20,325 bases of DNA from a virus, in the IMG/VR virus record IMGVR_UViG_3300033153_003152, positions 1 through 20,325 of that record, one strand, 5' to 3'. The translations under genes and the position numbers were made by a program. A model generated the notes under the pieces. That model was not told where the DNA came from, searched no databases, and saw only the letters and a list, made by a program, of their open reading frames with translations. Shown here piece by piece: positions 2,766 to 20,209 of the stretch. Position 1 is the first letter of the stretch. The number at the start of each line of letters is the position of its first letter.

Positions 2766-3021
2766 CTTTTTTATTCCTTAGATATTCTGCTTCTTGCCTC
2801 AAGTCCAAAACTTCATTGAGGTAAAACAAATCTGCATAAGTGTAAATTGTTCTGAGCTCATGCAAGGTAGCCATCCCACCATTGATGAGCCTTGCAATAA
2901 ACAGGTCAACATTTAAGTCTCTATCTGGGATTGACCCAGATAGATGGTGTGCAAACTTGACCTTTACTACTCCCCCATAGAGAAGAAGTTGACCTGTAGT
3001 ATGAATGCTGCTACTTCCCAA
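2758..3021 (-). CDS. Downstream frame of the tail assembly chaperone (probably made by -1 frameshift)
   Basis: This 87-codon open frame overlaps the end of the chaperone gene in the -1 frame. Its only start-like codon (TTG, 3021) lacks a good ribosome site, and an in-frame TAA lies just upstream at 3034-3036. It is therefore better read as an extension: a -1 slip on the G run at 2972-2976 would join residues 1-133 of the chaperone to the last 71 residues here, giving about 204 aa. The downstream part contains a helical, basic segment (FIARLINGGMATLHELRTIY and LDLRQEAEYL). In lambda (gpG/gpGT) and many other tailed phages such a long form links chaperone, tape measure and tube subunits. Confidence 0.6.
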   Translation of the reverse strand: MGSSSIHTTGQLLLYGGVVKVKFAHHLSGSIPDRDLNVDLFIARLINGGMATLHELRTIYTYADLFYLNEVLDLRQEAEYLRNKKDA

Positions 3022-17863: not shown

Positions 17864-17920
17864 ATCAACTTTCCTTGTTACAATTAAAATTATTAGCCTA
17901 AACAAAAAAATATAAATAAG

Positions 17921-17934
17921 TCTTTCTATACTAT
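17921..17934. repeat. 14-bp direct repeat TCTTTCTATACTAT, copy 1
   Basis: The same 14 bases occur again at 18076-18089. This copy also lies in a palindrome, TTTCTATA-CTA-TATAGAAA (17923-17941), with an 8-bp stem. It overlaps the candidate late promoter -10, so it could be an operator. Confidence 0.55.
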
Positions 17935-17953
17935 ATAGAAATATGAAAGTAAA
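17925..17953 (-). promoter_or_regulatory. Candidate sigma70-like promoter for the late operon
   Basis: On the minus strand TTTACT (17948-17953) lies 17 nt before TATAGA (17925-17930). Each matches its consensus at 4 of 6 bases. The start of transcription would fall near 17918, about 55 nt ahead of the first late ORF. AT-rich DNA gives such matches by chance, so confidence is low. Confidence 0.3.
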
Positions 17954-17993
17954 GCTTTATTTTAGTTGAAACAAAAATAGTTCATAAATTCAC

Positions 17994-18026
17994 TTATAAC
18001 TCACTAATATAACTGAGCATTTAGGG
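17994..18026 (-). promoter_or_regulatory. Box element copy C (inverted orientation): CCCTAAATGCTCAGTTA-N10-TTATAA
   Basis: Read on the minus strand, the 17-bp box (18026-18010) is followed by 10 nt and TTATAA (17999-17994). It matches the box of copies A and B except for one C/G change in the core. It points toward the late operon 130 bp away, so an activator-dependent promoter or operator is possible. Confidence 0.45.
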
Positions 18027-18075
18027 TATTCGGGATTATAGGTTTCTCATCCACCAGTACAGGGAGTATTTAAAC

Positions 18076-18089
18076 TCTTTCTATACTAT
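18076..18089. repeat. 14-bp direct repeat TCTTTCTATACTAT, copy 2
   Basis: This is the exact second copy of the repeat at 17921-17934, 155 bp away. It is followed by TATATATA-type sequence and is not part of a palindrome here. Confidence 0.55.
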
Positions 18090-18270
18090 TTATATATATT
18101 ACAACTATACACTTTTTTTAGGTTTATATGTGTTTATACTATATATATATTTTATTTCTCTAATCTCTAAGGGTAGTAAAACCTAATGAAACCTAAAGTG
18201 CTCTAAGTAACTGATATAATTGAAGATATTAACTTTATTTTTATCAATAAAATCAGGCACTTATGCCAAT

Positions 18271-18303
18271 CCCTAAATGGTCAGTTATTTCCAATACTTA
18301 TAA
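18271..18303 (+). promoter_or_regulatory. Box element copy A: CCCTAAATGGTCAGTTA-N10-TTATAA
   Basis: The box at 18271-18287 is followed by TTTCCAATAC and TTATAA (18298-18303). The 16-bp core CCTAAATGGTCAGTTA is identical in copy B, and the spacing to TTATAA is the same in all three copies. This suggests a bound protein next to a -10-like element. Confidence 0.45.
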
Positions 18304-18322
18304 CTTTTCTTAAAGTTGAGAA

Positions 18323-18355
18323 ACCTAAATGGTCAGTTAAAACAAGTACTTATAT
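18323..18355 (+). promoter_or_regulatory. Box element copy B: ACCTAAATGGTCAGTTA-N10-TTATAT
   Basis: The box at 18323-18339 is followed by AAACAAGTAC and TTATAT (18350-18355). It starts 52 bp after copy A in the same orientation. A degenerate fourth site with nearly the same 10-nt spacer (AAACAAATAC, then TTATAA) ends at about 18473 but lacks a clear box. Confidence 0.45.
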
Positions 18356-18520
18356 TTTTATATTTGAAAACCAATATCAACACCATATTTTAAATCCTCA
18401 ATATTCTCCAACAGTTATAACTATTTTATTGTCCCAACTAACATTGTATGTACTATAAAAACAAATACTTATAAGAAAAAACACCAAGAGTGAACTAAAA
18501 AATACCAACTCCAACCCAAA

Positions 18521-18563
18521 TTCTTAAATTAAATTTAAAAACCTATAAAAATTAATTTAAGAA
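18521..18563. repeat. 12-bp perfect inverted repeat after the zinc-ribbon gene
   Basis: TTCTTAAATTAA (18521-18532) and TTAATTTAAGAA (18552-18563) are exact inverse copies with a 19-nt spacer. They begin 8 nt after the stop of the last small gene, so a transcript-end hairpin is possible. The stem is almost all A-T and has no U tract, so a terminator is weakly supported; a protein site or origin element is the alternative. Confidence 0.4.
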
Positions 18564-18571
18564 AATAAAAG

Positions 18572-18809
18572 CTATTTTTCAACCTTAACAAACTTATTCA
18601 AATACATCCCACACCCAGGACATGTTGAATGTGATCTCTCCCTCATCCAATATTTAGACCATTGAGTCCCATTATACTTCACTTCACAGCGAGGACACAC
18701 CCAGGTTTCTTGCTTAGGGGGCTTTTCTCCTCTTATATATATAATTACCTATACTTATAATAAACACCACTATAGCCCAATAAATATACACTAATAATGT
18801 ATCACTCAT
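18572..18809 (-). CDS. Membrane-anchored zinc-ribbon protein, probably made by +1 frameshift
   Basis: If the ribosome moves forward one base at CCC-T (zero frame GCC CCC TAA), the TM ORF joins a 47-residue tail: KQETWVCPRCEVKYNGTQWS, then a basic helix, STCPGCGMYLN and a Lys-rich end. Four Cys (C38, C41, C63, C66 of a 78-aa product) form a typical zinc ribbon. The zinc-ribbon frame has no ATG, GTG or TTG between its last upstream stop and its first Cys motif except a GTG inside W-V-C without a ribosome site. The fused product makes sense: one TM, a KRRK anchor, a cytoplasmic zinc ribbon. A real single-base insertion in the C run, or a sequencing error, would look the same. Confidence 0.55.
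18714..18809 (-). CDS. Small one-TM protein (zero-frame part of a probable frameshift gene)
   Basis: This 31-aa ORF begins at an ATG overlapping the stop of the upstream gene (ATGA), with a strong AGGAGG 8 nt before it. It encodes a short N-terminus (MSDTLL), one membrane helix (about 6-24: VYIYWAIVVFIISIGNYIY) and a basic end KRRKAP. It stops in GCC CCC TAA. On its own it is a tiny membrane protein with the basic end inside the cell by the positive-inside rule. The +1 frame just after the stop encodes a zinc ribbon with no start codon, so the two are probably parts of one protein. Confidence 0.65.
   Translation of the reverse strand: MSDTLLVYIYWAIVVFIISIGNYIYKRRKAP
18716..18721 (-). other. 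Candidate +1 frameshift site CCCCC-T before TAA
   Basis: The minus strand reads GCC CCC TAA G. A P-site tRNA on CCC can re-pair with CCT after a +1 move while the slow stop codon waits. Similar CCC-U-stop sites are known for +1 frameshifting in Listeria phage PSA. An AGGAG lies 7 nt before the CCC codon. Confidence 0.45.
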
Positions 18810-19126
18810 CTCTCATGCCTCCTATAAAAATGTTCATAATCTTCTTGAGTCCAAGTATCATCAAAAGGTTCATCATTCAGGTCCTCTTCAGAATAATTTA
18901 ACTTTCTTCTTAGATTATGATCCACTGATAGCACATCCATTAACCTTTCACCTTGGTCAAGCCAACCCTCTGATTTTAACTCCATCTCTAAAACATCAAT
19001 AGGCAAACCACTTTTCTTGAATAAGCACTTAGATGAGACAGGAAAATTCTGTATCTCATGCTTATAGACAGACCAAGGAACACAATTTATGCCTCCTTTT
19101 CTTATTCTTTGTCTTAGAGTGGTCAA
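18806..19126 (-). CDS. Hypothetical protein, charged and helical
   Basis: The start chosen is a TTG at 19126: it overlaps the upstream TGA by 4 nt and has GGAG 8 nt before. A GTG at 19135 has its only GGAG one base away. The product is 106 aa, reading TTLRQRIRKGGINCVPWSVY, then FKKSGLPIDVLEMELKSEGW and a strongly acidic, aromatic end (EPFDDTWTQEDYEHFYRR). It is mostly helical and has two Cys. I do not recognise it. Its stop overlaps the start of the small TM gene. Confidence 0.55.
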   Translation of the reverse strand: MTTLRQRIRKGGINCVPWSVYKHEIQNFPVSSKCLFKKSGLPIDVLEMELKSEGWLDQGERLMDVLSVDHNLRRKLNYSEEDLNDEPFDDTWTQEDYEHFYRRHER

Positions 19127-19320
19127 TCTCCACACTCCAATAACATTTGATTTTCCTCATCCAATGGAAGCTTGTTCACTTTTACCATCTCATGACAGAA
19201 CAAACACTTCATCCTATGTGGCTTGTTAAACTGGTTCCTTGTACAATGAGCACTATGTACAGTACCACAAAGGGCACATTTCCATGAATATTCTATGTAA
19301 GTTAATTGGTTATGGTTCAT
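19123..19320 (-). CDS. Small zinc-ribbon protein
   Basis: The ATG at 19320 overlaps the upstream stop (ATGA) and has AAAGGA upstream, giving 65 aa. It has WKCALCGTVHSAHCTRNQFN and RMKCLFCHEMVKVNKL. The C-x2-C pairs (C15, C18; C38 and C41 by my count) make a two-knuckle zinc ribbon, with the extra C24 and H20 nearby. Such ribbons often bind nucleic acid or RNA polymerase, but no specific role can be inferred. It is one of several Cys-rich small proteins in this block. Confidence 0.65.
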   Translation of the reverse strand: MNHNQLTYIEYSWKCALCGTVHSAHCTRNQFNKPHRMKCLFCHEMVKVNKLPLDEENQMLLECGD

Positions 19321-19481
19321 GATAATCCTTTCATCCATTGGCTTAGTATCCAACAGATATTGGTTATTACACACCCAATCCCATAAGCCTCAAATTTGTC
19401 AATATCATCATGGTTCACTGCACAGAAGCCAAGGGTAAAAATACACCCAACCAGTATAACAAAAATAGATAAATTATTCAT
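19317..19481 (-). CDS. Small membrane protein with two TM segments
   Basis: The ATG at 19481 has GGAGG only 3 nt upstream, a short gap, but the alternative start at 19499 has no site. The product is 54 aa with a first hydrophobic segment at about 4-21 (LSIFVILVGCIFTLGFCA), a polar turn (NHDDIDKFEA) and a second at about 34-48 (YGIGCVITNICWILSQW). It overlaps both neighbours. No family is recognised. Small early phage membrane proteins are often involved in host takeover or superinfection exclusion, but that is speculative here. Confidence 0.55.
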   Translation of the reverse strand: MNNLSIFVILVGCIFTLGFCAVNHDDIDKFEAYGIGCVITNICWILSQWMKGLS

Positions 19482-19722
19482 TTTCCTCCAATACACCATA
19501 AAAGCCTGATTTTTGTTGATGCTTTGGACACAATGCTTTTATATCCTGTGTGCTAACTCTTTTAGTATTACAATCAGGACATTCAACATATTGATCAACC
19601 CACCAAGCACACTCATCTGCAAGACAAAATACTCTCTTTAAATTCCTACCCATAGCTGTTTCATATATACCAGACATCTTTGGACAGACTAACTTTTTAT
19701 ATTCAGCTATTGTTTTGATCAT
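19474..19722 (-). CDS. Cys-rich small phage protein (zinc binding)
   Basis: The ATG at 19722 overlaps the upstream stop (TGATG) with GGAGG 7 nt before. The 82-aa protein reads KTIAEYKKLVCPKMSGIYET, then KRVFCLADECAWWVDQYVEC, PDCNTKRVS and KALCPKHQQKSGFYGVL. The C-L-A-D-x-C-x-x-W motif with an opening L-V-C-P is a recurring pattern in phage small proteins of unknown role. Seven candidate ligands (C13, C33, C38, C48, C51, C65, H68) could hold one or two zinc ions or an iron-sulphur centre. Confidence 0.65.
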   Translation of the reverse strand: MIKTIAEYKKLVCPKMSGIYETAMGRNLKRVFCLADECAWWVDQYVECPDCNTKRVSTQDIKALCPKHQQKSGFYGVLEENE

Positions 19723-19925
19723 CAATATTCCTCCCAATATCCATACTCATTAAGGTATTTACCATCATTCTCCTCACCAGGCTCCCAATCAACCCATTCC
19801 CCACAACTATTTTTCTTTTTACCTCTTGGGCCAGAGTCTTCTTCTTTTTTACCAAAGTCACTGCTTCCTATTGCTCCAGGAGCACAATCATCATATTCAT
19901 CTTCTTCATCATAAGGCCAAGTCAT
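19722..19925 (-). CDS. Very acidic small hypothetical protein
   Basis: This 67-aa protein starts with an ATG overlapping the upstream stop (ATGA), with GGAGGGG upstream. It begins WPYDEEDEYDDCAPGAIGSS, has a small basic stretch PRGKKKNSCGEW, and ends in WEPGEEND and an aromatic tail YGYWEEY. It is low-complexity and probably disordered, with many Asp/Glu and Trp/Tyr. Acidic proteins of this kind can mimic DNA, but nothing here shows it. No family is recognised. Confidence 0.5.
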   Translation of the reverse strand: MTWPYDEEDEYDDCAPGAIGSSDFGKKEEDSGPRGKKKNSCGEWVDWEPGEENDGKYLNEYGYWEEY

Positions 19926-20209
19926 TTCTTCCCCTCCATTAATTTATCCCAACATTCTTTGCTACATATACAAGGCTCAATAGGCTGCCCCATACACCCA
20001 CATTCATGACCAGAGCAACACATCTGATATTTAAACTTGTATACAAATTCACCACATATTTCACAATACTCTCCAAACTTTCTGGTGTATAAGAAAAAGT
20101 GCATGTCCTCCCTAATTTGTTTGTTATCAGCCTTCTTTGTAATACCTCTGCCAGAATATATGTACAAACTATATAAACTTATTGGTTTTGGCCAAATTTC
20201 TTCTTCCAT
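19922..20209 (-). CDS. Cys-rich small phage protein (multi zinc-knuckle)
   Basis: The ATG at 20209 follows GGAG by 7 nt and gives 95 aa; an upstream TTG would not have a site. The first half is aromatic (ISLYSLYIYSGRGI) and the second carries YCEICGEFVYKF, QMCCSGHECGCMGQPIEPCI and CSKECW. Nine Cys plus a His form at least two metal sites. The order C-x-x-C, MCC-x(2)-H-E-CGC-x-GQPIEP, C-S-x-EC is a recurring phage protein pattern of unknown role. It overlaps its downstream neighbour. Confidence 0.65.
   Translation of the reverse strand: MEEEIWPKPISLYSLYIYSGRGITKKADNKQIREDMHFFLYTRKFGEYCEICGEFVYKFKYQMCCSGHECGCMGQPIEPCICSKECWDKLMEGKK

Follow-up and report, generated by a model that had tools for sequence, protein, structure and literature searches.

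A short membrane-protein frame in a viral DNA record ends at GCC CCC TAA, and a four-cysteine zinc-ribbon frame lies directly behind it in the +1 frame. Are the two halves one gene split by a one-base change in length, two neighbouring genes of an operon, or one gene completed by a +1 slip of the ribosome at the stop codon? The DNA analysed, hereafter the window, comprises 20,325 bases of virus record IMGVR_UViG_3300033153_003152 with a G+C content of 38%. It carries late genes of a tailed phage assigned through PHROGs (tape measure, tail assembly chaperone and small terminase subunit), and its large terminase is 43.6% identical to that of Erwinia phage RF1. The high-coordinate end of the window is taken up by a small-gene cluster that lies entirely on the minus strand, and the membrane/ribbon pair is its last member. 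The features of the pair and its surroundings, read along the minus strand, are as follows.

18806..19126, minus strand: upstream neighbour gene; its TTG start overlaps the preceding TGA, and it shares an ATGA overlap with the 31-residue ORF
18818..18823, minus strand: Shine-Dalgarno sequence AGGAGG of the 31-residue ORF, with an 8-nt spacer
18714..18809, minus strand: ORF for a 31-residue single-pass membrane peptide, MSDTLLVYIYWAIVVFIISIGNYIYKRRKAP; stop TAA at 18716-18714
18572..18748, minus strand: +1 open frame with the four-cysteine zinc ribbon CPRC...CPGC; stop TAG at 18574-18572
18727..18734, minus strand: internal Shine-Dalgarno-like AAGAGGAG, which encodes part of KRRK and lies 7 nt upstream of CCC; its role is putative
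18717..18721, minus strand: run of five C (C5); CCC at 18719-18717 is the last sense codon, giving CCC_TAA with CCT as the +1 codon
18572..18700, minus strand: shortest start-bearing ribbon form, 42 residues, from GTG 18700, which has no Shine-Dalgarno sequence
18521..18563, minus strand: A+T-rich hairpin with 16-nt arms, about 10 nt past the ribbon stop (fold z -3.0)

The first-pass annotation described a membrane-protein ORF of 31 residues with a strong ribosome site and a GCC CCC TAA end, and this description is borne out in every part. The start codon sits in the ATGA overlap with the upstream gene, and the ribosome site scores -10.2 kcal/mol, within the best 1.1% among all ATG, GTG and TTG codons. 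The 3' end of the ORF reads AAA GCC CCC TAA, with the junction codons GCC CCC TAA at 18722-18714. The peptide has a hydrophobic helix with a Kyte-Doolittle value of 2.03 over 19 residues, followed by KRRK. In an AlphaFold model made without an alignment, most of residues 3-28 form a helix of high confidence, and the ribbon is of low confidence. The positive-inside rule is the basis for predicting membrane topology. Since KRRK follows the helix, the peptide is predicted to be oriented with its N terminus outside and its C terminus inside, so that a ribbon fused to it would be cytoplasmic and tethered to the membrane.

The +1 frame encodes the four-cysteine ribbon, as had been claimed for it, and has no stop between 18748 and the TAG at 18574-18572. 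The window contains a single CPxC...CPxC motif, and 100 dinucleotide shuffles produced none, suggesting that the frame is very probably coding rather than a product of chance. The two CPxC knuckles stand at a ribbon-like spacing. They share the CxxC...CxxC pattern with generic four-cysteine zinc ribbons, namely Pfam models and the PHROG Lar-like phrog_6422, in weak matches with E values of 2e-4 or worse; all Pfam matches fall below the cut-off, and none places the frame in a curated zinc-ribbon family. The ribbon would be expected to bind zinc, and it may act as a small nucleic-acid- or protein-binding module tethered at the membrane.

How translation of the ribbon would begin is central to the question. 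The ribbon had been said to have no usable start codon, and this has to be qualified, since GTG 18700 exists in frame. This GTG is the first ATG, GTG or TTG after the TAA and the only one in the ribbon frame; it lies 13 nt past the TAA, directly before CPRC, and a protein starting there (MCPRC...) would be soluble, 42 residues long and in possession of all four cysteines. The substance of the claim holds to the extent that the GTG has no Shine-Dalgarno sequence: its anti-Shine-Dalgarno score is -0.7 kcal/mol, weaker than that of 72% of start-like codons at large, whereas the scores of 27 other starts in the window range from -3.0 to -13.5 kcal/mol with a median of -6.8. Other in-frame starts were considered and rejected, because upstream of the GTG the frame offers only rare ATT and ATA codons without a ribosome site.

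A start at GTG 18700 would make the pair two genes, in which a ribosome that terminates at the TAA is held near the stop by the upstream AAGAGGAG and reinitiates at the GTG. The organisation of the cluster speaks for this arrangement: its genes are tightly coupled by ATGA and TTGA overlaps, TTG and GTG starts are in use, and one other membrane-protein gene has a distinct ribbon gene behind it. In this second pair (19481-19123, minus strand) a gene for a 54-residue membrane protein, 19481-19317, precedes the ribbon gene n83, 19320-19123, and the two are plainly separate genes in an ATGA overlap. A solo membrane peptide of similar size, 32 residues, is present in a relative (L004:4106-4204), and E. 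coli provides documented cases of both GUGUG initiation and termination-reinitiation (PMC9841429). The pair thus resembles its coupled neighbours in having an in-frame start close to the upstream stop, but the ribosome site at that start is unlike theirs. In addition, reinitiation at the GTG would lose a tryptophan at position -2 from the first cysteine (WVCPRC), whose codon precedes the GTG. In this operon the n83 ribbon, too, has tryptophan at -2 (SWKCALC), suggesting weakly that the protein extends upstream of the GTG; BLASTP gives no support for paralogy between the two ribbons. Taken with the codon usage at the junction described below, two genes joined by reinitiation are a possible reading, but rather an unlikely one.

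Small cysteine-rich genes n83, n87 and n100 form a run at 19123-20206 on the minus strand. Clear PHROG matches exist for n100 alone (phrog_19268), and no relatives of n83 and n87 were found in viral contigs. At the other end of the cluster, the hairpin at 18521..18563 is a possible operon end. Between the cluster and the gene preceding the small terminase, about 600 nt (17906-18520) contain no evident genes; direct repeats CCTAAATGGTCAGTTA lie at 18272 and 18324, and CTCTTTCTATACTAT-like copies at 17918 and 18073. This region is possibly regulatory.

The junction itself is unusual in composition. CCC accounts for 6 of 5,892 codons in the window (about 0.1%) and for 6 of 188 proline codons, and the C5 at the junction is the only such run on the coding strand. 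Therefore, CCC-TAA as the end of an ordinary gene would be a coincidence, which weighs against two independent genes, for which CCC as the last codon would be expected by chance at about 0.1%. When CCCT is read as one proline, the two frames give a 78-residue reading that is open without a stop, as the first-pass annotation had proposed for a slip from CCC to CCT, and that consists of the membrane helix, KRRK and the ribbon, with KAPKQETWVCPR around the junction. The join of the halves falls at a linker after the stop-transfer sequence. Both frames are open together over 33 nt, 18748-18716, and so the frames could be joined by a shift or indel at any point of this stretch, not in the C run alone. 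C5 is a short run for transcriptional slippage, which was set aside on these general grounds.

The 78-residue protein could also be made from the DNA as it stands if peptidyl-tRNA-Pro slips from CCC to CCT with UAA in the A site. Such a slip, programmed or merely tolerated, would yield a minority of membrane-anchored ribbon alongside the 31-residue peptide. Sites at which CCC_U precedes a stop are known to allow +1 shifting: CCC_UGA directs it in tsh of the Listeria phages PSA, A118 and A500, and E. coli K-12 pheL, with CCC_UGA, shows about 15% shifting that is held to be incidental (PMC5009743). The features of the site add to the case, since CCC is rare, C5 occurs nowhere else on the coding strand, the stop follows the run without a gap and an SD-like AGGAG precedes it. 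The parallel with PSA that had been drawn for this locus holds for CCC followed by U and a stop in the A site, as in tsh; it does not extend to the stop codon, which is UGA in tsh and UAA here, nor to the second PSA site, ACA_CCC_(UCC_GAA) in cps, which has no stop (PMC5009743).

The tsh genes of PSA, A118 and A500 are phage genes with a proline CCC directly before the stop and +1 re-pairing on CCU, but they are tail genes with UGA, whereas the present site has UAA and lies in a small accessory gene with a putative fusion product. The pheL gene is likewise a short ORF with a CCC-stop end, at which slipping is measurable, but its stop is UGA and its shift is held incidental. The prfB gene for RF2 resembles the locus in having a pyrimidine run with a stop and an SD-like sequence upstream; it differs in the site, CTT_TGA_C against CCC_TAA_G here, and in the distance of the SD-like element from the slip codon, which is 3 nt in prfB and 7 nt here. 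In the study that gives the 3-nt distance (PMC12421855), 98.6% of prfB motifs have TGA and 1.4% have TAA, a stop that its authors regard as poorly tolerated. The weak UGA shared by tsh, pheL and prfB is replaced here by UAA followed by G, and the 107 nt downstream fold no better than shuffles (z -0.64). PSA tsh is described with the stop codon only (PMC5009743), and by analogy a stimulator element may be dispensable for a shift at CCC_stop. Judged by its sequence, the site is weaker in its features than known +1 sites, with UAA, a spacing of 7 and no structure above chance, and no conserved relative was found in the collections searched. Programmed +1 shifting is possible, and a slip of either kind appears somewhat more doubtful than reinitiation. 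The specific proposal of a programmed shift in a phage accessory gene at CCC_UAA, by which one start would supply a free 31-residue peptide and a minority of tethered ribbon, is less probable again.

Elsewhere in the window, the tail assembly chaperone ORF 3371-2967 (phrog_1613) has at its end the sole G5 run of the coding strand, 2972-2976 (minus strand), and is overlapped by ORF 3021-2758 in the -1 frame. The run and the overlapping ORFs at 3371-2758 are probably the usual -1 frameshift of tail chaperones.

Relatives of the pair were sought by sequence and by synteny. The 78-residue reading has no significant match in viral contigs, phages, species genomes or plasmids, in scans that used exact 8-residue seeds, by which diverged relatives could be missed, and that may leave out records very near the window's own. 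Three weak matches were rejected as chance-like: one has no ribbon in the matching frame (L013), one is a different CPEC/CPKC frame (L014) and one is a viral zinc-finger ORF of different arrangement (L015). The DNA pattern of the junction, with variable run length, was found in four contigs, all unrelated. The synteny search used the large and small terminases and three other neighbour genes. Eight contigs have related large terminases (57-68% identity), and the pair was not seen in the stretches compared, which do not span every contig whole. The upstream neighbour is common to only two contigs (79% and 42%), namely L011 and the one represented by L009 and L012, and both lack the membrane/ribbon pair in the stretches compared. 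On this evidence, the pair appears to be an accessory, orphan unit.

Since CCC is rare, C5 is unique, the only in-frame start has no Shine-Dalgarno sequence and the tryptophan lies before the GTG, the sequence favours the view that the two parts belong together, whether through a programmed slip or as a gene changed in length by one base, between which these features do not discriminate. The reading we prefer, tentatively and at somewhat under an even chance, is a single membrane-ribbon gene that a one-base change in length has interrupted. The ancestral product would have been a small protein with an external N terminus, a single membrane helix, KRRK as a basic stop-transfer sequence and a cytoplasmic zinc ribbon, whose halves would now stand one base out of frame. 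The change would probably lie in or next to C5 and may represent natural variation, early decay or an error of assembly. In agreement with this, the ribbon frame has no supported start (-0.7 kcal/mol at GTG 18700), the tryptophan of WVCPRC stands upstream of the GTG as in the n83 ribbon, the halves join at a linker after the stop-transfer sequence, and the junction has no special signals beyond the run. A length change would be easiest to understand at C5, and any point of the 33-nt overlap could serve. Against this reading, the other checked genes of the window are open over their full length, suggesting that the general error rate is low, and a stop directly after the run would arise by chance only. 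The fused ancestor is hypothetical, since the searches yielded no relative that carries both halves in a single frame. The weights given to the readings, including the very small one left to other explanations, are judgements and not computed probabilities. A length change, or two ordinary neighbouring genes, explains the locus as well as or better than a programmed slip.

The reading chosen bears on how recoding is viewed in phages. If the slip is real, a non-structural phage gene would carry a +1 CCC_stop site with UAA as the stop and would give rise to a small membrane protein in two forms. If it is not, a gene split at a homopolymer in a single contig is a caution against calling recoding without read support.
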